A stretch of DNA of 64,000 nucleotides from Candidatus Thiothrix sulfatifontis (GCA_022828425.1 CP094685.1:1054001-1118000), one strand, 5' to 3'; positions 7,906-27,641 are shown, counted from the first letter of the stretch. Numbers and translations: made by a program. Notes: a model not told the origin generated them from the letters alone.

Positions 7906-8595
7906 ATGCGCTTATTACTGGTGGAAGACGACACCGAACTCAGCAGCAGTTTGCACACGCGCTTAAAACGTGAAGGCTTCGCGGTGGACATCGCCAGTAA
8001 CGGTGTGGATGGCGAATTCATGGGCGACGAAACGCCTTACGATGCGGTGATTCTTGACCTCGGCTTGCCGCAACGCAGCGGGCTGGCGGTGTTGCAACAC
8101 TGGCGGCAGCGCGGCAATCGCGTGCCGGTGATTATTCTCACCGCCCGCGATGCCTGGCACGAACGGGTGGACGGTTTCAAAGCCGGGGCAGACGATTACC
8201 TCGGCAAGCCGTTTCATTTTGAGGAATTGCTGGTGCGGGTGCAGGCGTTGATTCGCCGTAATTTGCAAGCGGCAGTTCCCGACCAAAAGTTGCATTGCTG
8301 CGGCTTGCAATTGGATGAGGCACATCAGCAAGTCACCACGCCAGACGGTGAAGTCTTCGAGTTGACGGGGACAGAATTTCGCCTGTTGCGCTATTTTATG
8401 TTGCACCCCGGTCGGATTCTTACCAAGTCACGTTTAACCGAACACGTTTACGAGCAAGATTTTGACCGTGATAGCAATGTGATCGAAGTGTATGTGCGCC
8501 ATTTGCGCCGCAAGTTGGGGGATTGGCGCATCCAAACGCGGCGCGGGCAGGGGTATATTTTCATCGACCCCGACAAGCCGGAGCTGCCCTTATGA
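7906..8595 (+). CDS. OmpR/PhoB-family response regulator
   Basis: 229 aa. The receiver domain has acidic residues VEDD near the N-terminus, the phosphoacceptor Asp51 in VILDLGLP and the lysine in YLGKPFHFEEL. The C-terminal winged helix (EFRLLRYFMLHPGRILTKSRL ... VYVRHLRRKLG) is of the QseB/PhoP type. AGGAAA lies before ATG. The stop overlaps the kinase start (ATGA). The TTTCAG repeats at 5580 and 7169 have the 11-bp period preferred by this family, so it probably controls the DUF2202 operon and its own transcription unit. Confidence 0.92.
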   Translation: MRLLLVEDDTELSSSLHTRLKREGFAVDIASNGVDGEFMGDETPYDAVILDLGLPQRSGLAVLQHWRQRGNRVPVIILTARDAWHERVDGFKAGADDYLGKPFHFEELLVRVQALIRRNLQAAVPDQKLHCCGLQLDEAHQQVTTPDGEVFELTGTEFRLLRYFMLHPGRILTKSRLTEHVYEQDFDRDSNVIEVYVRHLRRKLGDWRIQTRRGQGYIFIDPDKPELPL

Positions 8596-13293: not shown

Positions 13294-13316
13294 ATATTGG
13301 CGGAGAGAAAGGGATT
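13294..13316. repeat. att repeat, left end of island
   Basis: Twenty-three bases starting ATATTGGCGGAGAG are identical to 27550-27572. They correspond to the 3' end of the tRNA-Ser gene (CCA tail, acceptor stem and part of the T arm). Identity stops exactly after GGGATT in both. Confidence 0.92.
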
Positions 13317-13402: not shown

Positions 13403-13665
13403 TTTCACCCCCTGTTTTTGCGTGTAACCCCACTGCCAACAATACCAGCCCGCCCGCTATCGTCTGCCCTTCCCGTGGTTGCGGTTTGCCTAGCCCGTCT
13501 GTACAGGCTTTAACGGTGTTTCCTTGTGTGGTTGTGGCGTGGTAAGTGCGTCGATATTAAATTAAATAAATAATAAATATTGCAAAATAAAATAGAAAAT
13601 ATTTGTTTTTCCGCTAGTGGGTTTGGGGGGGCTTGGGTGGGGTGTGGGGGTTGTTTTTCCGAAAA

Positions 13666-13836
13666 TCCCAACTTTTCCCCAACTTTTCGCGTAAGTTATT
13701 GTATTTAAAAGAAAATGGCAGTTGGGATGGCTTTTTCAAAAGCAACCTAAGTTATTGTATATAAATAACTTTCGTGGTTGGGAAAAATCCCAACTTTATC
13801 CCAACTTATCCCAACTTTTTGGGGTGAAAGTTGGGG
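13666..13836. repeat. AGTTGGGA iteron-like cluster, left
   Basis: Exact copies of AGTTGGGA or its complement lie at 13666, 13720, 13788, 13799 and 13809, with variants at 13677, 13776 and 13829. The last three exact copies are spaced 11 and 10 bases, so they face the same side of the helix. A second direct repeat, TAAGTTATTGTAT, occurs at 13692 and 13748. The surrounding 13,317-13,929 has no gene and is AT-rich in parts. This looks like an origin of replication or a regulatory array for the element. Confidence 0.6.
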
Positions 13837-13930
13837 TTTTGGAGGTGAATTTGAGGTTTGCTTAAAAATAACTCACAAAGGATAAAGTAATATTTATTAT
13901 GATTTTTCGATTTGTATTTATTTTTGATAG

Positions 13931-13979: not shown

Positions 13980-15443
13980 TCAAGCAATCAGGCGTAGGTA
14001 TTTGCCTTGGCTGAAGCCGTTGGGGTAGAACGTTTCCTCCTCCACAACCACGCCTTTTCTGATAAGTTCATCAACGGTTTCGTTGATCTTGTTGGTTAGG
14101 CTGCTGCGGGGAATTTCCGACCATGGCTTACCTTCGCATTTGTTGGTACGTATCAGCTTGCGGGTGGCGTTCTGCTGTTTGCCAAGGTAGGCAATGATCG
14201 AATTTTCAAAGGCGTTTAAGCCGATAACCTCCAAGTCGATTAACAGGCTTAGTATGTATTCCAGCATATCGCGCATGATGTTGATGCCCGCTTCTACGTA
14301 TTCCCGCCCTACTTCACCCACTGGTTTTTCATCCAAGATCGCTAATAGAGTGGCAATTTTCATAATGTGCATGTCGACTTTTGAAACAATGCCGCCCATG
14401 GTGGCGGTGCTGTACTTGCCGCCTTCTAGCAAATGTGGCTCCATCTCATTTCTAAACAGTTGGATTTTATGCCAGTCTTCTTTATTGAGGCGGTACGCTG
14501 GCAAGTCGTCAAAATCCTTCGCCAGTGTTAGCACTTGCGCCGTTATATCCTTCACAATTCGGTTGTAAACATTCTGGCTGTATTCTTGTGGGTAGTATTG
14601 TCGGGTGTGGTCGCGTGTGCCTTGTTGTGTCGGTTCCCGTGCCAGCATGAAACGTTCCGCCATCCCAGAACCTTCGGACTTTGCCAATATGGTTTCAATC
14701 GCTGCCGGTTGCGCAAAGCAAGTGATTGCCCCTACAACAATTCCGGTGTAAGTCGTTCTCTCTTTTGCTGCCCGTGCGCCCGCATGATATTCAGCGTTGA
14801 AGCCCTTTAGGGGCAAGTCTCCATTGTTCTTTTTATCTTTGCCGCCGTATGCAGCGCCAGTTAGGGTATTCACCACGGCTTGTTCCGCACTGGCAAGGGC
14901 AAAATAGCCGCCAGACTCTGCCAATACCGATTCAAGGGCTTCTACTGTTGAGTCAGTGATAAAAATACGGGGCGGTCTTGGTTCGTCAAATTTGCCATCA
15001 GATCCCGAATTTTCGTGTGCTTCTTTGCGTTGCTTCCATGCTTTATCGGCTTCCTTTTGTGCCTCAAATATTGGGCGTTGGAAGGCTTTTAGCATTCGGC
15101 TTTTCGCATCGCCCGGAATGCCGCCACAGATGATGTATTCCCCAACGGGGAACAAACTTCCATCCTGATAGGCGACTGCAACAGAACGGCACGCTACAGA
15201 CGAAACAATGCCTAACGCTACCAATAAGCTAGTTGACGGATAAATGTTGCACATCCGCGCTACGTCGCCCACGTACTGCTTAAAATCACCGTCAGGGAGG
15301 TGCTTCAACAGGTCAAGTGTGTGCGGTTTCGCCTGTTCCGGTTCGGCTGGTTTGTAGGTGGGCTTTTCGGTGCGTACAAAATTATTCACGACTGACAGGT
15401 TAGGTTTGCCGCTGGTAGTGGTTTGAGGTGTTGGGGTAGTCAT
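13980..15443 (-). CDS. DUF3987 protein (helicase-like replication protein)
   Basis: 487 aa. The middle part matches the DUF3987 family (YfjI-like): a P-loop-like segment ICGGIPGDAKSRMLKAF replaces the canonical GxxGxGKS, followed by IFITDSTVEALESVLAESGG and SGMAERFMLAREP. Family members are found with primases in plasmids, satellites and integrative elements and are thought to act in element replication. The ATG overlaps the stop of the TOPRIM gene by four bases. The N-terminal 40 residues are Pro/Thr-rich and probably unstructured. Confidence 0.85.
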   Translation of the reverse strand: MTTPTPQTTTSGKPNLSVVNNFVRTEKPTYKPAEPEQAKPHTLDLLKHLPDGDFKQYVGDVARMCNIYPSTSLLVALGIVSSVACRSVAVAYQDGSLFPVGEYIICGGIPGDAKSRMLKAFQRPIFEAQKEADKAWKQRKEAHENSGSDGKFDEPRPPRIFITDSTVEALESVLAESGGYFALASAEQAVVNTLTGAAYGGKDKKNNGDLPLKGFNAEYHAGARAAKERTTYTGIVVGAITCFAQPAAIETILAKSEGSGMAERFMLAREPTQQGTRDHTRQYYPQEYSQNVYNRIVKDITAQVLTLAKDFDDLPAYRLNKEDWHKIQLFRNEMEPHLLEGGKYSTATMGGIVSKVDMHIMKIATLLAILDEKPVGEVGREYVEAGINIMRDMLEYILSLLIDLEVIGLNAFENSIIAYLGKQQNATRKLIRTNKCEGKPWSEIPRSSLTNKINETVDELIRKGVVVEEETFYPNGFSQGKYLRLIA

Positions 15444-16486
15444 GGGGTAGTATCCTTGTGGGCGTTGCTTCCCAGCAATGCCGTTAAATCGTTGAAATCG
15501 GAAAGGTGCAAGGGGGCAGTGTCGGGGAATTCCGGCACGATCAAACCGACCTTGGGTAAGCTGGCAACCACGGCACGCGCTTTGCTTAAGCCGGGGTTGT
15601 CGGGGGTTTTGCGGTCGTTATCCGCGCATACGGTCAAGGGAATATGCGGAAAGCGGTTGTGGTAGTTTTGGGTAACAGGTAGCAGGTTTCCCGCGTCAAA
15701 GGCTACCAGCACGGGTAAGCCGTAGGCTTCATGCAGGCTTGCGCCGGTGGCGTAGCCTTCGCAGACGTACACACCTTGGGGGTGTGTGAGGTTGTCGCCT
15801 ATTAAGTGGAATTTGCCGCGCTTGGGTGTGCCGGTCAAAAAGCGTTTCTCACCTGTGGGGGCAATGGTTTGCAAGCCGTGCAAGGTGCCGTCAAGGTCAC
15901 AGAGGGGAATAAGCAACAGATTGCCCGCTTGCCGGATGTTGTATGCCCCTACCCGCTTACGCATCAGGTAAGGGTGTGCGGGGTTGGCAGGTTGGCCAGA
16001 TTCCCACATTGCCCCGCCTTGGCGGTGGGCTTGTTCCGCTTTGGCGGCGCGTTCCGCTTGTTGTTGGGCAACTTGCGCTTGTTGCTTGCGCTCTAGTTCT
16101 TGCTTCGCTTCGCGGCTCAATTGAAAAAACGTGCTAAAGCTGTTCCATTGGTAAGTGGAACCTTCCCGCCAGTTGCCGAAAATGCAGACAATGCCCCACT
16201 GATAGGCTTGATCAATCATCAGGGTGTGTTCATGGCAGACATACCAGCCCGCCTTATCGTCGGGTTTACCATTGCTAGAAAAGCGTTCTAATTTGCCGCT
16301 GCATTCAATCGTATTAGGGGCATGACCAATATTCTCTATCAGCGCTTGTCTGAAATTAGTGAGAATATCCGTGGTGCTTAATGGCAGTTTTGCGGCTGAT
16401 GTTTTATAATCAATTCTCGAATCGTTGAAATTTGTATGGCCTCTAGTGTTGGTAGCGCTAGGGGCTTTTCTTTGTGCGCTTTTCAT
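15440..16486 (-). CDS. TOPRIM-domain primase (TraC/P4-alpha type)
   Basis: 348 aa from ATG 16486, with GAGGG seven bases upstream; the longer frame to 16522 overlaps alpA. It has an N-terminal region with FGNWREGSTYQW, a Gln/Ala-rich helix (about residues 138-165), and a zinc-free TOPRIM domain. The TOPRIM motifs are GVYVCEGYATGASLHEA (catalytic Glu), VLVAFDAGN and LTVCADNDRK. It would make primers for replication of the element together with the DUF3987 helicase-like protein. Four bases separate it from the alpA stop. Confidence 0.86.
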   Translation of the reverse strand: MKSAQRKAPSATNTRGHTNFNDSRIDYKTSAAKLPLSTTDILTNFRQALIENIGHAPNTIECSGKLERFSSNGKPDDKAGWYVCHEHTLMIDQAYQWGIVCIFGNWREGSTYQWNSFSTFFQLSREAKQELERKQQAQVAQQQAERAAKAEQAHRQGGAMWESGQPANPAHPYLMRKRVGAYNIRQAGNLLLIPLCDLDGTLHGLQTIAPTGEKRFLTGTPKRGKFHLIGDNLTHPQGVYVCEGYATGASLHEAYGLPVLVAFDAGNLLPVTQNYHNRFPHIPLTVCADNDRKTPDNPGLSKARAVVASLPKVGLIVPEFPDTAPLHLSDFNDLTALLGSNAHKDTTP

Positions 16487-16490
16487 AAAA

Positions 16491-16748
16491 TTACCCTCTT
16501 GCTTGATAAATCCATTCGTCAACTTCTGATTCTAACCATCTGCGGGTTCTTGTGCCGTATAACGTGCCATAGGGAAATGTTCCCGCTTTGCGCCAGCGGT
16601 TTATGGTGCTTCTGCCGTATCGGGTTTTCATTACAACTTCATGCATATCAATCAGGCGGATACCGATAGGCATTTCAGGCTTTTGGTGCTGTAGTTTTTG
16701 TTTCCATTCTTGGAAATCAAACGTGTTTAATGATGTTAGGGTTTGCAT
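16491..16748 (-). CDS. AlpA-family DNA-binding regulator / excisionase
   Basis: 85 aa. GIRLIDMHEVVMKTRYGRSTINRWRKAGTFP and LYGTRTRRWLESEVDEWI are the standard AlpA winged-helix motifs. GGAG lies eight bases upstream of ATG. AlpA proteins activate integrase transcription or act as directionality factors in P4-like elements. It is the first gene of the replication operon. Confidence 0.9.
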   Translation of the reverse strand: MQTLTSLNTFDFQEWKQKLQHQKPEMPIGIRLIDMHEVVMKTRYGRSTINRWRKAGTFPYGTLYGTRTRRWLESEVDEWIYQARG

Positions 16749-16815: not shown

Positions 16816-19002
16816 TTAAGCTAAAATATATTTAGGCTTACCGTTTGAGTAATCAGGATTGGCTTTTAAAATTCCATCCTGTAAGGCGCGTTGATTCCAG
16901 TTCAACCAAATGCGCCCCATTTCCTGCACTGTTAAGCCTGTTTTGTCGTCCTTGCTCTTGGTGGATTGGCTGATAAAACGCTTACAATCACGAGCGCCGG
17001 GAGTGATTTCCTTGTCATTTACCTTTGCAATCCATTGCGGGTAAAGGTCGATTTCTGCTTGCTTGGCTTCACCTGTAAGACCGTTTTGCACCGTTTCGCC
17101 GCTACCGTTTTGTGACCGTGCGGGCACGGTGTCTGCTACCGTTTCGCACCGTGCGGGCACGGTTGGCAGAACGGCCTCTGAAACGCTTTCATGAAACGGT
17201 AGGGCGGTTGCCAAGGGTAGCGGGTAGATCGCTTCAGCCGTGCCTAACGCGGGGTTGTGCAGGCCAGTTGCACCAGTGCGTTGCTGCAATGGCATGACCG
17301 GGGCAGGGGTAGCAGGTGCCGAACTTTTGGCAATCTTAGCCGCAACTTTTAACAGGTCTTTATCGTCAAGATCGGCAGGGTTAAATAGCTTTGAATAACC
17401 ATCGAATACCGCCGCCTGAATATCGGCCTCAGTTGTTGCGCCTGACTTTTTAACCGCATCCACTAACGCATGGATAGTTTCAGCAACAGACTGGCGTTTA
17501 ATTTCCGGGGTAGGAGATTCTCTGAAAACCTTGCCAGCTTCATGTTTTGCCGTTTCTGCCTGATACAATTTACTGACATTAGCCGCTTGTTCTGGCGATT
17601 GTTTAAAGCCTTGCACCTCTTGAATAACAGGCGCATCACTACGCCACCGTGGGGACAATTGGTATTCATTGCCATGCTTCACTAAAACATTGTCCTTTGT
17701 GGCTAAATGTTCCAGTAAATGCGCCGCTAATTTCATAACGGTTTTTCGCGGTGTTTCGTATCCAGCGTCATACAGGGTTTTATAAACAGCGGGGTAGAGT
17801 GATTCAGCCGTTGGTTCTAATTCACTGCGCAATAACTGGAATTTGATTGATTTTAGCATTTCATTCATAAACGCCTGATCGGGTTTACCTGACATTGATT
17901 CCAGCTTATCGCCCACGGCTTTAGCTGCATTGCCCATTGCTTCCATTTGCTGATTCCTTCCGTGTTGCGCCCGTGCGTATTCATTGGCGAGAATTTCAGG
18001 GCTTGCCTTTAAACCGCTTTCAACCTTTTGGGCGTATTCCGCTACGCTCATTTTTGCAGAATCAAATGCTGATAGGGGAGGGGTGATGTTATAAGCGTCT
18101 TGGGTAGACCGTGGTTTATCTTCGGTATTACCGCCTTTCCCCTTAATCCGCCGTAACGCATTGGCATAGGCAAATAGCGCCATAATGTGCTGACACTCGA
18201 ACACGAAGATCAACACGCCGATCACCAGTAGCATTCCGGTGTTGTTGTCGGTTTGCGTTGCTTTCCCAATGGCTTGGAACATGGGCTTATCAAAATGCTC
18301 ACGTACCTTTAGCATGGCGTCGGTTTTGGCATTTAACGCCGCTGCATTGGTGTCGTTCGCCATGGCGTTTGCCATCTGCATTGACTCCCGTACCGCCGCT
18401 ACATTCGCTTCGGATTGCGCACAATCGAACGTTTTACCCTTGGCTAGTGCTTTTTCCATCCTCACTTTGCAATCGGCTAACCGCATTTGTGCGGCTTGCA
18501 GGTCTTGGGTGAGGGCAGTGCTACCCGTGGATAACGTGACGTTGCTACCCGTTACTTCCTTCATCATGCCGGAATTTTCCGCCGCTGAATTGGCGATATG
18601 TTGCTGGTTGTTGGACGTGCTGAACGCCTCAAACAGTAGCCCCGATGTGAGAAACAAGCCCATGGCGATAATCTGCGAGGTTTTTAGCTTGTAGCCTTCC
18701 GCTCTGTGAATAGCAATGTCTTCGTAAACCGCTTCTTTGCTGGAGGCCAGAAAAAAGGCGAGGGTGAAGGCAATCACGCTGAACACAATCAGCGCCACCC
18801 AATCGTTACTTTTCTGAACAATGAATGTGCCAATGCCCCACACGTCAGCGACGTACAGCATGAACACTGCGACGATGTATAGCCCGAAGGTTGCCCATTT
18901 CGCCCACTGCATCAGGTTATAGTTTTTAATGGCCCGGTGTTTGTCACTAAAGACCGAATCACCGTTGCCCGCTTTGGTTGCTAATACGCTTTGAATATTC
19001 AT
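16816..19002 (-). CDS. 728-aa membrane protein of unknown function
   Basis: Three transmembrane segments lie near the N-terminus (about 33-57, 68-86, 108-128). A loop of about 110 residues with Cys and Asn/Ala-rich helices follows, then a fourth TM (VIGVLIFVFECQHIMALFAY, about 255-275). The remaining about 450 residues are soluble and predicted cytoplasmic. This part contains a possible winged-helix stretch (TVMKLAAHLLEHLATKDNV...HGNEYQLSPRW), Pro/Thr-rich linkers, and a final conserved-looking block (RIWLNWNQRALQDG). No family was recognised. It is the last gene of a five-gene operon and starts nine bases after a small TM protein gene. Confidence 0.8.
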   Translation of the reverse strand: MNIQSVLATKAGNGDSVFSDKHRAIKNYNLMQWAKWATFGLYIVAVFMLYVADVWGIGTFIVQKSNDWVALIVFSVIAFTLAFFLASSKEAVYEDIAIHRAEGYKLKTSQIIAMGLFLTSGLLFEAFSTSNNQQHIANSAAENSGMMKEVTGSNVTLSTGSTALTQDLQAAQMRLADCKVRMEKALAKGKTFDCAQSEANVAAVRESMQMANAMANDTNAAALNAKTDAMLKVREHFDKPMFQAIGKATQTDNNTGMLLVIGVLIFVFECQHIMALFAYANALRRIKGKGGNTEDKPRSTQDAYNITPPLSAFDSAKMSVAEYAQKVESGLKASPEILANEYARAQHGRNQQMEAMGNAAKAVGDKLESMSGKPDQAFMNEMLKSIKFQLLRSELEPTAESLYPAVYKTLYDAGYETPRKTVMKLAAHLLEHLATKDNVLVKHGNEYQLSPRWRSDAPVIQEVQGFKQSPEQAANVSKLYQAETAKHEAGKVFRESPTPEIKRQSVAETIHALVDAVKKSGATTEADIQAAVFDGYSKLFNPADLDDKDLLKVAAKIAKSSAPATPAPVMPLQQRTGATGLHNPALGTAEAIYPLPLATALPFHESVSEAVLPTVPARCETVADTVPARSQNGSGETVQNGLTGEAKQAEIDLYPQWIAKVNDKEITPGARDCKRFISQSTKSKDDKTGLTVQEMGRIWLNWNQRALQDGILKANPDYSNGKPKYILA

Positions 19003-19011
19003 AAGTCCCCC

Positions 19012-19368
19012 TTAGAAACTGTTCGCCAGCAAAAACATGCCAGCCGCCGCCGTCATGATCGACACGCCGTCACGGGTGTAAAACACCACTGCGACAAAAA
19101 ACGCGCCTATCAGGAATTGACCAATAAACGCCAGTGCGCCCGCTCCGAAGAACAGGGCGTAATGAAAATATTGGTAGGCGGTGAACAGCATCCCGATGGA
19201 TACCAGCACGCGGGCGGTGATGATGAAAACGCGCTCCCAGTCGATACGGCCTAGGATGGCGGTTAAGCTGGATACAGTGCTATCCATGCCGTGCGCATCA
19301 GGTGAGTGCTGTAACGCTCTCACAGAGGCAACATGCGCTTGCTCTTGGGGTGTCAGTAGTGGATTCAT
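19012..19368 (-). CDS. Small three-TM membrane protein
   Basis: 118 aa. A soluble N-terminal 45 residues (LTPQEQAHVASVRAL) is followed by three hydrophobic helices: VFIITARVLVSIGMLF, ALFFGAGALAFIGQFLIGAFFVAVVF and SIMTAAAGMFLLANSF. The ATG overlaps the previous stop by four bases. It is probably a partner of the 728-aa membrane protein, with which it is coupled. No family is recognised. Confidence 0.75.
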   Translation of the reverse strand: MNPLLTPQEQAHVASVRALQHSPDAHGMDSTVSSLTAILGRIDWERVFIITARVLVSIGMLFTAYQYFHYALFFGAGALAFIGQFLIGAFFVAVVFYTRDGVSIMTAAAGMFLLANSF

Positions 19369-19673
19369 GCTTCAGCCCTCCGATAACCACGTTTCAACAT
19401 ATCCGCCTCAATAGCAGCAAAAGCCGCCTCACGGTTGCGCTTGTGTTGATCGTGCTGATAGCAGTCGATTACCCACGGCATACGCCCACGCCTTGACCAC
19501 ACCACGCCTTGAAATTCGTATCGTGCGGGAAGTTGCCCGCCATTTTTCAGGGATATGGTTAGCGGTGAACCGTCTGGCTTGTACCAATGCAAACCGCTGA
19601 TAGTTGGTTCTGGCGTTACTGGTGCGCCTATTGGCAGGGCAAACAGGGATAGTTGATCGAGTGGCTTAGCCAT
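19365..19673 (-). CDS. Hypothetical 102-aa protein
   Basis: ATG 19673 is chosen because AGGAGG lies six bases upstream; the longer frame overlaps the preceding gene. It is a soluble, beta-rich protein (SGLHWYKPDGSPLTISL, GVVWSRRGRMPWVIDCYQHD) with a basic C-terminal helix. It is not recognised. Both ends overlap neighbours, so it is translationally coupled in the five-gene operon. Confidence 0.75.
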   Translation of the reverse strand: MAKPLDQLSLFALPIGAPVTPEPTISGLHWYKPDGSPLTISLKNGGQLPARYEFQGVVWSRRGRMPWVIDCYQHDQHKRNREAAFAAIEADMLKRGYRRAEA

Positions 19674-20109
19674 GCTGCACCTCCTGCATATCGCAATTGA
19701 GCCACACTTTGATGCTTGCGCCGCTGGTGGGGTCAATGCCGATGCAATAACAAGAACAGGCGCGATAATCGCCTGAGTCCATGCCGTAATCGTGATAGTA
19801 CGAGCCGCCGTTTTCGTCGCACTGCCAGTAATGCCCATCCTCCAGCCAATCCATGCGGGGGGGAACGATGCATTTACCGTGGAGGTTGGTATAGGCTTGC
19901 GTATTGGTGCGTGCCTGTTCTGCACGTACCAAATCAAGCAAATCCACTTTTAAGCAGTCGAGAATGCGTAGGGTATCAATCACGTTTTCGACGTATCCGC
20001 TTTTGCGGGTGGATACAGTGCTATCCAGCGCCGCCGCGTGTTGGGCGAAGATCGCCAGACTGTCGGCACGGGCGTGAATGTCACGAAGTAGGGTGTTTAG
20101 GTCGCTCAT
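19666..20109 (-). CDS. Hypothetical 147-aa protein with Cys-rich C-terminus
   Basis: The N-terminal half is helical (LNTLLRDIHARADSLAIFAQHAAAL). The C-terminal half is Trp/Tyr/Cys-rich (DGHYWQCDENGG, GDYRACSCYCIGIDP, VWLNCDMQ), which suggests a small metal-bound or disulfide-free beta domain. No family is recognised. It overlaps the upstream and downstream genes (ATGA at 20106-20109). Confidence 0.75.
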   Translation of the reverse strand: MSDLNTLLRDIHARADSLAIFAQHAAALDSTVSTRKSGYVENVIDTLRILDCLKVDLLDLVRAEQARTNTQAYTNLHGKCIVPPRMDWLEDGHYWQCDENGGSYYHDYGMDSGDYRACSCYCIGIDPTSGASIKVWLNCDMQEVQHG

Positions 20110-20387
20110 ACAGCACCGCCTTTGATTTCTGTTACAGGATTCAAAGTTTTCACTACGTCGGAATATTCGAGCGCGTGAATAGCGTCATGCAGGGCTTCAA
20201 GGCGTGTTTCTAGGGTTTCGAGTAGGTGGGTAAGTTCTGCGACTTCCACAACCTCATTAAGTGCCGATTTTCTGCCAATGCTGGCAAGGTTGAATAACGC
20301 CCATGATTCATTACCCAATTGATTGAGGGTGGTTTTCAGGTCGGTATTGTTTGTGCCGTTGGGCGTTGTGATAAGATTACGTTTCAT
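20106..20387 (-). CDS. Hypothetical 93-aa coiled-coil protein, first gene of the five-gene operon
   Basis: Mostly helical with a leucine-rich amphipathic stretch (VAELTHLLETLETRLEALHDAIHAL). The N-terminus is polar (TPNGTNNTDLKTTL). It resembles a small accessory or oligomerisation protein; no family is recognised. Its 3' end contains an imperfect copy of the inverted repeat that frames the TumE/TumA genes (20121-20147). Its start lies about 105 bases before the RHH regulator gene. Confidence 0.7.
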   Translation of the reverse strand: MKRNLITTPNGTNNTDLKTTLNQLGNESWALFNLASIGRKSALNEVVEVAELTHLLETLETRLEALHDAIHALEYSDVVKTLNPVTEIKGGAV

Positions 20388-20491: not shown

Positions 20492-20662
20492 TTATGCCTT
20501 CTGTGTTTTGTCTGCCTCCTTCACTTCACGAGCTTGCTTGATAAGCTGGCATACCATGCTGTTCACGCTTCGCCCTGTCTTACGTGCCTGTTCCTCAATC
20601 CATGCTTTATCTTCTGGTTGCATACGCAAGCCGAAAGGTTTGATTGATCTTGTTGCGGTCAT
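20492..20662 (-). CDS. Arc-type ribbon-helix-helix regulator
   Basis: 56 aa, short and easily missed. KPFGLRMQPEDKAWIEEQA and TGRSVNSMVCQLIKQAREV give the strand-helix-helix of the Arc/MetJ family, in which the N-terminal strand reads the DNA major groove. AAGGA lies nine bases upstream of ATG 20662. It is divergent from a second RHH gene at 20774 whose strand shares the motif PFGLRM. The pair recalls the Mnt/Arc switch of phage P22 and probably controls a lysis/maintenance-like decision of the island; that is inference. Confidence 0.82.
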   Translation of the reverse strand: MTATRSIKPFGLRMQPEDKAWIEEQARKTGRSVNSMVCQLIKQAREVKEADKTQKA

Positions 20663-20683
20663 TTCCGTCTTTCCTTTTTAATA

Positions 20684-20770
20684 ACACCGTGAAGTCACAA
20701 TAATTACACCGTGTTTCTATCACGTCAAGCATTTTGTGATTACACTGTGAAGTCATTGTGTAACGGTGTA
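20684..20770. promoter_or_regulatory. Operator cluster between the divergent RHH genes
   Basis: The 112-bp divergent region carries repeated half-sites: ACACCGTGAAGTCACAA at 20684, ATTACACCGTG at 20703, ATTACACTGTGAAGTCA at 20739 and TAACGGTGTA at 20761. ACAC(C/T)GTGAAGTCA occurs twice in direct orientation about 60 bases apart. Ribbon-helix-helix repressors typically bind such short repeated boxes in tandem. Confidence 0.65.
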
Positions 20771-20773
20771 CTT

Positions 20774-20983
20774 ATGAGTAGAGATGTAAACCCCTTCGGC
20801 TTGCGGATGCCGTCCGATGTGAAGGAAGAGCTTGAAAAACTGGCAGAACAGAACAGGCGTTCACTGAATGCTGAAATAGTCGTAAGGCTTGAAGAAAGCA
20901 TCAAGCGCGAAAAAGAAAGCTGCATCACTGGCGATGAACTGCGACGCATCGTCAGGGAAGAACTCACCAAAGCGGGTAAGTAG
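20774..20983 (+). CDS. Arc-family ribbon-helix-helix regulator
   Basis: 69 aa from ATG 20774; the open frame begins at 20711 but that part overlaps the operators. VNPFGLRMPSDVKEELEKLA and RRSLNAEIVVRLEESIKRE are classic Arc features. A C-terminal extension (GDELRRIVREELTKAG) may mediate tetramer formation. The ribosome site is weak. It is divergent from the 56-aa RHH gene. Confidence 0.85.
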   Translation: MSRDVNPFGLRMPSDVKEELEKLAEQNRRSLNAEIVVRLEESIKREKESCITGDELRRIVREELTKAGK

Positions 20984-25081: not shown

Positions 25082-25105
25082 TTTGATTGTTGTTACAGAT
25101 TTCAA
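25082..25105 (+). repeat. Inverted repeat framing tumE/tumA, left copy
   Basis: TTTGATTGTTGTTACAGA continues as TTTCAA. The complementary copy is at 25799-25822 (24 bp with one mismatch). An imperfect third copy is at 20121-20147 inside the 93-aa gene. Confidence 0.7.
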
Positions 25106-25476
25106 GCCGCCGCTTTGTTCTCACCCTTCAAGGTGAATTCTGTCCTGATTTCCGCAAAGGGGGAAAATACCCGCCCTGCTTCGTCACGTTCCAACAAGCC
25201 AATTTCCAAAAGCCTGCTTACATCCGTGTGAACGTTCTTCACATCCCGCCCCAATTGCTTAGCAAGTTCGCGGATACTCACCGCCGCTTTGCCTTGCAGC
25301 CTGTCCAGCAGTTCCCAGCGCTTGGGGGTAATCGCCTGAAACAATCCCATAGGCGTTTCAAAGGTGAATACCTCACCCTGATAACTGCCGGTTTCCAGTG
25401 CATCCACGAAAGCCGCGCCCATTTCCAGCAAATCGGCTTCTAGGTTGGGTTCAATGCGAATAATTGCGTATCTCAT
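25102..25476 (-). CDS. TumA-like antitoxin (HVO_A0114-type HTH)
   Basis: 124 aa with an N-terminal helix (IIRIEPNLEADLLEM) and a C-terminal winged helix (KAAVSIRELAKQLGRDVKNVHTDVSRLLEIGLLE). This matches the HVO_A0114-type DNA-binding antitoxins that are paired with TumE/DUF6516 toxins. The ATG overlaps the toxin stop (ATGA, 25473-25476), and toxin-first gene order fits tumE-tumA pairs. It probably represses its own operon. Confidence 0.82.
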   Translation of the reverse strand: MRYAIIRIEPNLEADLLEMGAAFVDALETGSYQGEVFTFETPMGLFQAITPKRWELLDRLQGKAAVSIRELAKQLGRDVKNVHTDVSRLLEIGLLERDEAGRVFSPFAEIRTEFTLKGENKAAA

Positions 25477-25763
25477 GGCTTGCCCCTCTCTGTGAGGATG
25501 TCAGTTACAAAATCCCGCCATACCTGTTCCGGTGTGGTGAAGGTGTAAGGCGTTTCGGTGTCGTAATAGTGCTTATGGTCGCCCTTGCCGCGTTCGTTGT
25601 CGTAACCGATAACACGTTGCCCCGGATAACCATAAAACAAGCGGTATTTGTACAGGTGGCTAGAACCCATAACGGCTTGGGGCAATGACCACGCCACGCC
25701 CTCAATAATTGCGCCGTCCGCAAATTCACGCCGCCGCTTGTAAATCAACACTGCTTTTTCCAT
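25473..25763 (-). CDS. TumE-family (DUF6516) toxin
   Basis: 96 aa from ATG 25763 (MEKAVLIYKRRREF). Family features are ADGAIIEGVAWSLP, YKYRLFYGYPG, RVIGYDNERGKGDHKHY and a C-terminal amphipathic helix (PEQVWRDFVTDI). TATACT ends seven bases before the ATG, a good -10 box, so the transcript may be leaderless; there is no Shine-Dalgarno sequence. GTTGG/CCAAC arms (25764-25768, 25777-25781) flank that box and may be the autorepression site. Confidence 0.82.
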   Translation of the reverse strand: MEKAVLIYKRRREFADGAIIEGVAWSLPQAVMGSSHLYKYRLFYGYPGQRVIGYDNERGKGDHKHYYDTETPYTFTTPEQVWRDFVTDILTERGKP

Positions 25764-25798
25764 GTTGGCAAGTATACCAACGCTTTGGGGTGGGTGCT

Positions 25799-25822
25799 TT
25801 GAATTCTGTAACAACAATCAAA
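25799..25822 (-). repeat. Inverted repeat framing tumE/tumA, right copy
   Basis: Complement of 25082-25105 with one mismatch, 36 bases upstream of the tumE start. Confidence 0.7.
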
Positions 25823-26065: not shown

Positions 26066-27388
26066 TTACTTCCCTTTGGTTTGAAACGGTATCACCTGCC
26101 CGCCCGCCCTCAGTTGGTCTAGGTAGTCTGCCCACACCTGCATCATGTCGCGCCTCACATCCACGTACACGGGGCAATCTGCCCTATCGTAAGCCGCTTT
26201 AATCGCGTTCTTTTCCTTATGGCCTAGCTGTTGCTCTACAAGCGATTCATCCCAACGTTTGCGCCCCTCCACGTACATGGAATTTAGCAGGCTGGATGCC
26301 ATGCCCCTAAAGCCGTGCGCGGTCATTTGACCATGAAACCCCATGCGCTTCAGTGCCACGTTCACAGTACTACGGTTCATCGGGTTGTCGCGGTTGTTGG
26401 GCATACCCTGAAACACGTACTTCTTGTGGCCCGATAGCGGCCTAAGTTCCTCAAAGATCGCCAGCGCTTGCGCGGATAACGGGATAATGTGTTTATTCTT
26501 CGGGTTGTTGGCTTGCTTAATGCGGGTGGGGGCTTTCATGCGCCGTACTTCGATTTCCCACGTTTGGTTATCCCAGTGTATTTCTGACCATTCCGCTTCT
26601 ATCAATTCGCCAGGTCTAAGCATCACCAGGGCGGAAAGTTTCAAAGCGCATACCGTATAAAAATTGCCGTGGTAATTGTCGATAGCCCGCAACAGTCGCC
26701 CCACTTCGATAGGGTCGGTAATCGCTGGCATTTGCCGTTCTTCTTCGCCCGGCTTGAATAACCCTCTCAGGCTTGGCGTTGGGTCGGTCTCTGCCCTGCC
26801 CGTCGCCACGGCATAGCGGCATATCTGCCCAATGCTGCCCAATACCTTCAAGTGGGTGTCGTGCGTGATGCGCTTTTGAATGCGCTCAATGACGGTTATC
26901 AGTTCGCGGGGTTTCAGTTCCGCTATGGGGCGCTTTCCAATGTAGGGGAATACATCCCGTTCCATGTAACTAACGGTGCGGGTTTGGTGGGTTTGGGACT
27001 TGTGGGCAAGATGATTCACAAACCATTCACGCGCCACCGCTTCAAAACTGTTGCTGTCTGCATCCGCTTGGTTGGCCTGTAGTTCGCGCTTGTATACCGA
27101 AGGGTCAATACCACGCGCCCGCAATGCCCGCGCCTCTTCGTGCCGTTCCCGTGCCAGCTTCAACGACACATCGGGGTAACGACCAATGGTGAGGGTTTTT
27201 TGTTTCGGAAAACGGTAGTTATAGCGCCAGACTCTAGTTGTGGTTTTGCCGTTGGTGGTTACGTGCAAGTACAGGCCGCCGCCGTCTGAATAGTTGCGTG
27301 GTTTTCCGTCTTTGTGGGGTTTGGTGACTTTCACCAGTGAGTCAGTCAGTTTGCGCTTGCATGGCTTGGCGTCTAGGTTTGCGGTCAT
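26066..27388 (-). CDS. int: P4-type tyrosine integrase
   Basis: 440 aa from ATG 27388, with AGAGG ten bases upstream; the longer frame to 27484 runs into repeats. The N-terminal DUF4102-like arm domain (KLTDSLVKV, YSDGGGLYLHVTTNG, LTIGRYPDVSLKLARERHEEAR) is followed by the catalytic domain. Its residues are Arg in LVMLRPGELIEAEW, His-x-x-Arg in AHGFRGMASSLLN, the GHK box QLGHKEKNAIK and Tyr in AAYDRADC. It inserts the island into the tRNA-Ser 3' end, next to which it lies. Confidence 0.96.
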   Translation of the reverse strand: MTANLDAKPCKRKLTDSLVKVTKPHKDGKPRNYSDGGGLYLHVTTNGKTTTRVWRYNYRFPKQKTLTIGRYPDVSLKLARERHEEARALRARGIDPSVYKRELQANQADADSNSFEAVAREWFVNHLAHKSQTHQTRTVSYMERDVFPYIGKRPIAELKPRELITVIERIQKRITHDTHLKVLGSIGQICRYAVATGRAETDPTPSLRGLFKPGEEERQMPAITDPIEVGRLLRAIDNYHGNFYTVCALKLSALVMLRPGELIEAEWSEIHWDNQTWEIEVRRMKAPTRIKQANNPKNKHIIPLSAQALAIFEELRPLSGHKKYVFQGMPNNRDNPMNRSTVNVALKRMGFHGQMTAHGFRGMASSLLNSMYVEGRKRWDESLVEQQLGHKEKNAIKAAYDRADCPVYVDVRRDMMQVWADYLDQLRAGGQVIPFQTKGK

Positions 27389-27431
27389 TTGTTTGTATCC
27401 TCTTGGGTATGGTTGAAGGATACCAACAATA

Positions 27432-27447
27432 ATACAAACATTTTGAT
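27432..27447 (+). repeat. Possible integrase arm-type site, right
   Basis: ATACAAACATTTTGAT is identical to 13387-13402. GATACAAG / GATACAGC / GATACAAC variants follow between 27475 and 27548. Confidence 0.45.
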
Positions 27448-27489
27448 GCGCTTCAGTGAGCCAACTTGATACAAGCTGATACAAGAAAA

Positions 27490-27549: not shown

Positions 27550-27572
27550 ATATTGGCGGAGAGAAAGGGATT
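27550..27572. repeat. att repeat, right end of island (tRNA side)
   Basis: Identical 23 bases to 13294-13316. This copy is the real tRNA-Ser 3' end. Confidence 0.92.
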
Positions 27573-27641
27573 CGAACCCTTGATACGTTGCCGTATACAC
27601 ACTTTCCAGGCGTGCTCCTTCGACCACTCGGACACCTCTCC
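27554..27641 (-). tRNA. tRNA-Ser (anticodon GGA)
   Basis: 88 nt with encoded CCA at 27554-27556. The acceptor stem GGAGAGG pairs with TCTCTCC (one G:U). Long variable arm, GTTCGAATC T loop. The anticodon GGA (27605-27607 on the plus strand reads TCC) sits in CTGGAAA. It resembles E. coli tRNA-Ser(GGA). Its 3' end is the island attachment site and is regenerated by insertion. Confidence 0.97.

Follow-up and report, generated by a model that had tools for sequence, protein, structure and literature searches.

A recurrent pair of membrane protein genes with a predicted DNA-binding tail, linked to replication genes of Thiothrix elements and to lexA

The operon and its products

The window analysed here is a stretch of 64,000 nucleotides of the Candidatus Thiothrix sulfatifontis chromosome (GCA_022828425.1 CP094685.1:1054001-1118000), in which an integrated element carries a minus-strand operon of five coupled open reading frames (ORFs). 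All five ORFs of a first-pass annotation of the window are present with the lengths and coordinates that it gave: a small soluble protein of 93 amino acids (aa; 20106-20387), a Cys-rich protein of 147 aa (19666-20109), a protein of 102 aa (19365-19673), a small membrane protein of 118 aa with two or three transmembrane (TM) helices (19012-19368), and a 728-aa protein with four TM helices and a long cytoplasmic arm (16816-19002), spaced in this order by -4, -8, -4 and +9 bases. The 102-aa frame begins at an ATG within a longer, TTG-started ORF of 190 aa. The first gene of the operon is probably that of a 56-aa Arc-type ribbon-helix-helix (RHH) protein (20492-20662, minus strand; identified by translation and Pfam Arc, 5.8e-5), one gene earlier than annotated. 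Genes for an AlpA-type protein, a Toprim primase and a DUF3987 helicase follow downstream on the same strand. As the first-pass annotation held, there is no recognisable family: none reaches significance for the operon proteins searched against Pfam, PHROG and NCBIfam, PADLOC assigns none of the five proteins to a defence system, and a sequence search of the PDB yields no convincing relatives.

In the 728-aa protein a long C-terminal part follows four hydrophobic segments, located at about residues 38-57, 68-87, 110-128 and 254-275, in keeping with the four-TM architecture first proposed. From the pattern of charges, the N-terminus, the TM2-TM3 loop and the C-terminal arm are predicted to be cytoplasmic and the TM3-TM4 loop of about 125 residues, which includes C178 and C194, to be periplasmic; the membrane core from TM1 to TM4 is encoded by positions 18178-18891 (minus strand). 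At least two Cys residues are found in this loop in 61 of 65 element copies of the family described below. The cytoplasmic arm is long, variable and repeat-bearing. Short in-frame repeats (TVPARxETVADTVPARSQNGS, at about residues 600-640) lie between arm and tail, and vary in number, in several copies.

The last 95 residues (634-728, encoded by 16816-17103, minus strand) are modelled by AlphaFold2 as a winged-helix domain of three helices and a wing (H-H-H-wing), with a predicted local distance difference test score (pLDDT) of 87.9 and a predicted template modelling score (pTM) of 0.78. Solved structures that match this tail are mostly winged helices of many families, among them FtsK gamma (Z 6.1, root-mean-square deviation 2.1 over 58 residues); VIA-align Z values of 5-7, as obtained for the tail, denote a common fold only and are no indication of function. 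Twelve copies end in a zinc-ribbon Cys/His pattern (CPxCG...HxFC) rather than a winged helix.

Distribution and linkage to replication genes

Only the pair of the 118-aa and 728-aa genes recurs. The gene order that had been offered as a searchable signature thus serves for its last two genes and not for all five: among 60 related loci, 2 have a relative of the 93-aa gene, 8 have one of the 147-aa gene, and none has one of the 102-aa gene. A profile search identified more than 60 further copies of the 728-aa family, of at least 400 aa, in Thiotrichaceae, almost all of them predicted to have three to five TM helices, most often four, a recurrence far beyond chance. Upstream of the four-TM gene, at a distance of typically about 10 bases, 53 of the 65 copies have a small TM gene. 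Profile matches are present in all 16 genomes of the genus and in 34 of 63 genomes of the family Thiotrichaceae, whereas in a class-wide sample of 369 Gammaproteobacteria only three genomes match either of the two profiles, all of them Thiotrichaceae. Matches in PLSDB are confined to Thiothrix plasmids, the INPHARED phage collection contains none, and IMG/VR contains none for the first profile and one integrated element for the second. No family member is described in any library searched, and to our knowledge no common accessory of unrelated replicons has been described for Thiotrichaceae. The main comparison of Thiothrix genomes covers plasmids; a search of its text for the words phage, prophage, integrase and lexA gave no hit (PMC8570282).

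The first-pass annotation considered that the operon could not be assigned to replication. Its relatives point the other way: 57 of the 65 element or plasmid copies have a recognised replication gene within five genes on the same strand. These replication genes are of at least five classes unrelated to each other, namely primase-helicase (25 copies), Phage_GPA rolling-circle initiator (14), O-type initiator (9), Rep_3 (6) and Rep_trans (3), each class having been confirmed on one representative by Pfam. On pTunz3 of T. unzii the pair lies directly behind rep, and the module is no more than about 3 kb from 12 of the 13 GPA-type rep genes of the genus (positions compared by hand). The tree of N-terminal membrane cores implies at least 20 changes of replication class among the 57 copies, compared with a mean of 28.5 after shuffling. 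Derivation of the pair from an inovirus remnant is rejected, because related pairs occur on theta and primase-helicase replicons.

Exchange of membrane cores and tails

Cores that are 98-100% identical can be paired with tails that are 9-30% identical, and the reverse is also seen. Loci L062 and L063 share a core with 100% identity and have tails with 9% identity, whereas L011 and L044 have cores with 23% and tails with 94% identity. Plasmid pTunz1 (L037) consists of two complete replicons, each with a rep gene followed directly by its own pair, the two cores being 99% and the two tails 30% alike. Judged from such comparisons of sequence, membrane core and tail are modular and freely exchanged. 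In two other loci (L081 and L088), two replication classes adjoin each other, and the membrane cores and tails are near-identical.

A chromosomal copy behind lexA

A full-length chromosomal member of the family occupies a fixed place in three genera, having been found by profile search in 25 of 26 genomes of groups g1, g7 and g8. The order in the loci read is lexA (identity confirmed by Pfam), about 24 bases, a small TM gene, a four-TM gene and a gene for a LysM-like membrane protein. The lexA-linked copies group almost entirely in one short-branched clade, whereas the element copies are diverse. Their tail matches the tail group of the window (profile comparison, E 3.6e-5); their small partner has no detectable sequence similarity to the 118-aa protein and resembles it in position and size only. 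The genes of the closest relatives of the host copy follow O-type initiator genes, and large plasmids are among the contigs concerned. The tree is unrooted, and this fits either domestication of the host copy from an element or the opposite course.

A direct repeat, GTTCN7GTTC, is located 33-40 bases before the lexA start in all 14 Thiotrichaceae loci tested (L107-L125). Such a repeat has the form of the alpha-proteobacterial LexA box, here in a gammaproteobacterium. SOS control of the lexA-linked copy is rated as likely and no higher because recA has no exact copy of the motif. The element copies have no such motif at their promoters, which speaks against their control by LexA. The gene after the lexA-linked pair (L107, 9826-10932) encodes a signal peptide, a LysM-like N-terminus (match below the curated cut-off) and a C-terminal TM helix, and its product looks FimV/HubP-like by eye; it is possibly part of the same function as the pair.

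The integrated element

The operon of the window belongs to a 14.3-kb element that lies in a tRNA-Ser gene of the Thiothrix chromosome between 23-bp direct repeats. The left repeat (ATATTGGCGGAGAGAAAGGGATT, 13294-13316) is an exact match to the right one (27550-27572), which is the 3' end of tRNA-Ser(GGA) (27554-27641). Beside the right repeat is the gene of a tyrosine integrase (26066-27484, minus strand; Pfam Phage_int_M 7e-27, Phage_integrase 9e-15), and from there the element comprises a TumE toxin gene with its partner, several genes without assignment, two divergent Arc-type RHH regulator genes, the operon, alpA, primase and helicase genes, and iteron-like repeats. The divergent RHH regulator (20774-20983, plus strand) has 69 aa (Pfam Arc 5.6e-14), and TTACACCGTGAAGTCA-type repeats between the two RHH genes (20675-20755) are probably operators. 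The three genes downstream of the operon, all on the minus strand, encode an 85-aa AlpA-type regulator or excisionase (16491-16748; Pfam Phage_AlpA 1.6e-9), a 360-aa Toprim primase (15440-16522; Pfam Toprim_3 1e-7, PHROG DNA primase 2e-65) and a 487-aa DUF3987 helicase-like protein (13980-15443; Pfam DUF3987 3.8e-36, PHROG DNA helicase 7e-56). The iteron-like repeats beyond them (TCCCAACTTT and its complement, 13662-13840), whose sequence folds much better than shuffled versions of it (z -5.7), are probably the replication origin.

No conjugation genes were found in the element by Pfam, and no virion genes of its own by Pfam and PHROG; the element proteins searched against the same two libraries include no match to a Zot/pI ATPase. 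No capsid-size or packaging-interference genes are recognised by Pfam or PHROGs, several genes of the element being without any family. The TumE toxin and its HVO_A0114-type partner (25102-25817) are 99-100% identical to a pair in a different element of the same genome (L012, 15060-15757), evidently a recently exchanged toxin-antitoxin cassette. Two small Thiothrix plasmids encode a protein with a Walker-type motif, GAHDSGKS, that looks Zot-like by eye (L147, 2323-3063; L152, 8643-9383), and its gene is adjoined by genes of membrane and secreted proteins; these may be relatives of filamentous phages that are maintained as plasmids.

Possible function of the gene pair

That the 118-aa and 728-aa proteins constitute a membrane-anchored, replication-linked pair with a predicted DNA-binding tail is well supported, and the membrane anchoring suggested at first pass holds up. 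For the task of the pair, the reading favoured here, tentatively, is that of a portable inner-membrane module that ties the DNA of the element, or its replication complex, to the membrane; we infer this tethering, and any link with segregation or division, from the features described above. Both members of the pair would be seated in the inner membrane, with the Cys-pair loop of the larger one in the periplasm, and the cytoplasmic arm would offer an exchangeable nucleic-acid-binding tail, a winged helix in this element and a zinc ribbon in other copies. By analogy with Noc, the tail may hold freshly replicating copies at the membrane in coordination with segregation and septum formation. Block of division by Noc needs simultaneous binding of DNA and membrane (PMC4331003), and in S. 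aureus Noc also restrains the initiation of replication (PMC5540599). The divergent Arc-type regulators would set the expression of the module. The host copy behind lexA would probably provide the same coupling of DNA to membrane after DNA damage, and its linkage to lexA fits a coupling of the state of the DNA to the envelope.

Several observations weigh against this reading. Of roughly 18 Rep_3 replicons in the genus, no more than about 5 have a recognisable module; being optional there, it is not an essential or basic replication protein. No association is seen between tail type and replication class (p = 0.58), so that a tie between them is rejected, and divergence of co-resident tails, as would serve to avoid incompatibility, is not significant (p = 0.30); both results speak against a strict rule of one tail for one origin. 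On one plasmid (locus L144) a 216-aa protein encoded right behind a Rep_3 gene (7914-8564) has no TM helices and no membrane core; its leader (MQTHDSNLRPSVR...) resembles the one of the small TM partner and its end the winged-helix tail, as a membrane-less version of the module. The whole-protein AlphaFold model (four sequences) has a pLDDT of 39.8 and is unusable. Finally, binding of DNA by the tail is a prediction from the modelled fold, and winged helices may bind proteins or RNA instead.

A division checkpoint would make use of the same parts in another way: the pair would block septation during DNA damage (host copy) or element replication, the tail sensing DNA and the core acting on the divisome. 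The host copy does lie within the lexA operon, with the LysM-like gene next downstream, and division inhibitors, many of them membrane proteins, often adjoin lexA (PMC6851548); no SulA was found in the genome (with a positive E. coli control), and the family proteins themselves do not match SulA. However, the inhibitors known so far are either SulA or small proteins with one TM helix, beside which four TM helices and a long DNA-binding arm would be unusual, and the lexA-type motif is missing from the promoters of element copies and, in exact form, from recA; a checkpoint seems unlikely. Spread of DNA between neighbouring cells of a filament, with the pair acting like Streptomyces Spd proteins, is quite improbable: comparison with SpdB by hhalign shows no similarity in sequence (probability 0.1), there is no match to DUF2637 (Pfam, E up to 1; a DUF2637 search of the Thiothrix genome itself also gave none, its controls being equally silent), no TraB/FtsK-like motor is found among the element proteins searched, and the fixed host copy behind lexA would go unexplained. 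These points stand against the small spdA (94 aa) ahead of the larger spdB (291 aa) on pIJ101, the filamentous growth of Thiothrix (PMC9455678), and the lack of virion or conjugation genes of the element's own.

Entry exclusion or an anti-phage role, both raised by the first-pass annotation, found no support, and together with superinfection exclusion they are very unlikely. Membrane location, a setting in mobile elements and the many co-resident copies per genome would suit such a system, but there is neither a PADLOC match nor a conjugation gene in the element, the linkage is to replication genes instead of defence islands, and a DNA-binding tail and a lexA-linked copy would not be expected of an exclusion protein. 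Just as doubtful is a membrane-bound transcription regulator whose periplasmic loop would sense an envelope signal while the tail controls genes of the element. A protein that is integral to the membrane and ends in a winged helix, with a conserved Cys pair in its periplasmic loop, is consistent with it, but the divergent Arc pair and AlpA seem to provide for regulation already, other copies have zinc-ribbon tails, and the linkage is to replication and not to one regulated gene set.

The tethering of element DNA to the membrane may be extended to a bolder proposal, possible though doubtful, of a replication-agnostic tether: one cassette of core and swappable tail that would serve rolling-circle, theta and primase-helicase replicons as a nucleoid-occlusion or partition device, and that was domesticated once into the SOS operon of the host. 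If this is true, the membrane holding of replicating DNA is a separable function that can be carried as a cassette whatever the chemistry of replication, and a host was able to place a copy of it under a DNA-damage operon. With one copy linked to lexA, the function can be tested in the host, and no element need be mobilised.

Comparison with known systems

Like the pair as read here, Noc of Bacillus and Staphylococcus bridges DNA and membrane and links division to replication or segregation (PMC4331003, PMC5540599). Unlike it, Noc is related to ParB and binds the membrane through an amphipathic helix, whereas the Thiothrix protein is integral to the membrane, with four TM helices, a tail that is a winged helix or a zinc ribbon, and a small TM protein as its partner; the 728-aa protein has no match to ParB (Pfam, E up to 1), and its tail is a predicted winged helix. 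The lexA-adjacent SOS division inhibitors (SulA, YneA, SosA, ChiZ and DivS) resemble the host copy in its place in the lexA operon of a genome in which SulA was not found, but the family described here is much larger, with four TM helices and a predicted DNA-binding tail, and its element copies do not share the promoter motif.

P4-like satellites and integrative elements have much in common with the element of the window, namely the tRNA-Ser site, tyrosine integrase, AlpA, primase, helicase and iteron-like repeats; the differences are that related pairs are found just as well on true plasmids and next to rolling-circle initiators, and that no capsid-hijacking gene is recognised. The Spd proteins (SpdB of pIJ101 and SpdB2 of pSVH1) are similar in gene order, a small gene preceding that of a larger membrane protein, and in being DNA-binding integral membrane proteins on replicons of a filamentous bacterium, an architecture that for Thiothrix is given by prediction; they differ in having no detectable homology to the pair, which has a long periplasmic Cys loop and no TraB motor. 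Sequence comparison placed the pair in none of the known families tested; in its apparent manner of working, it compares well with membrane-anchored DNA-binding accessories of replicons.

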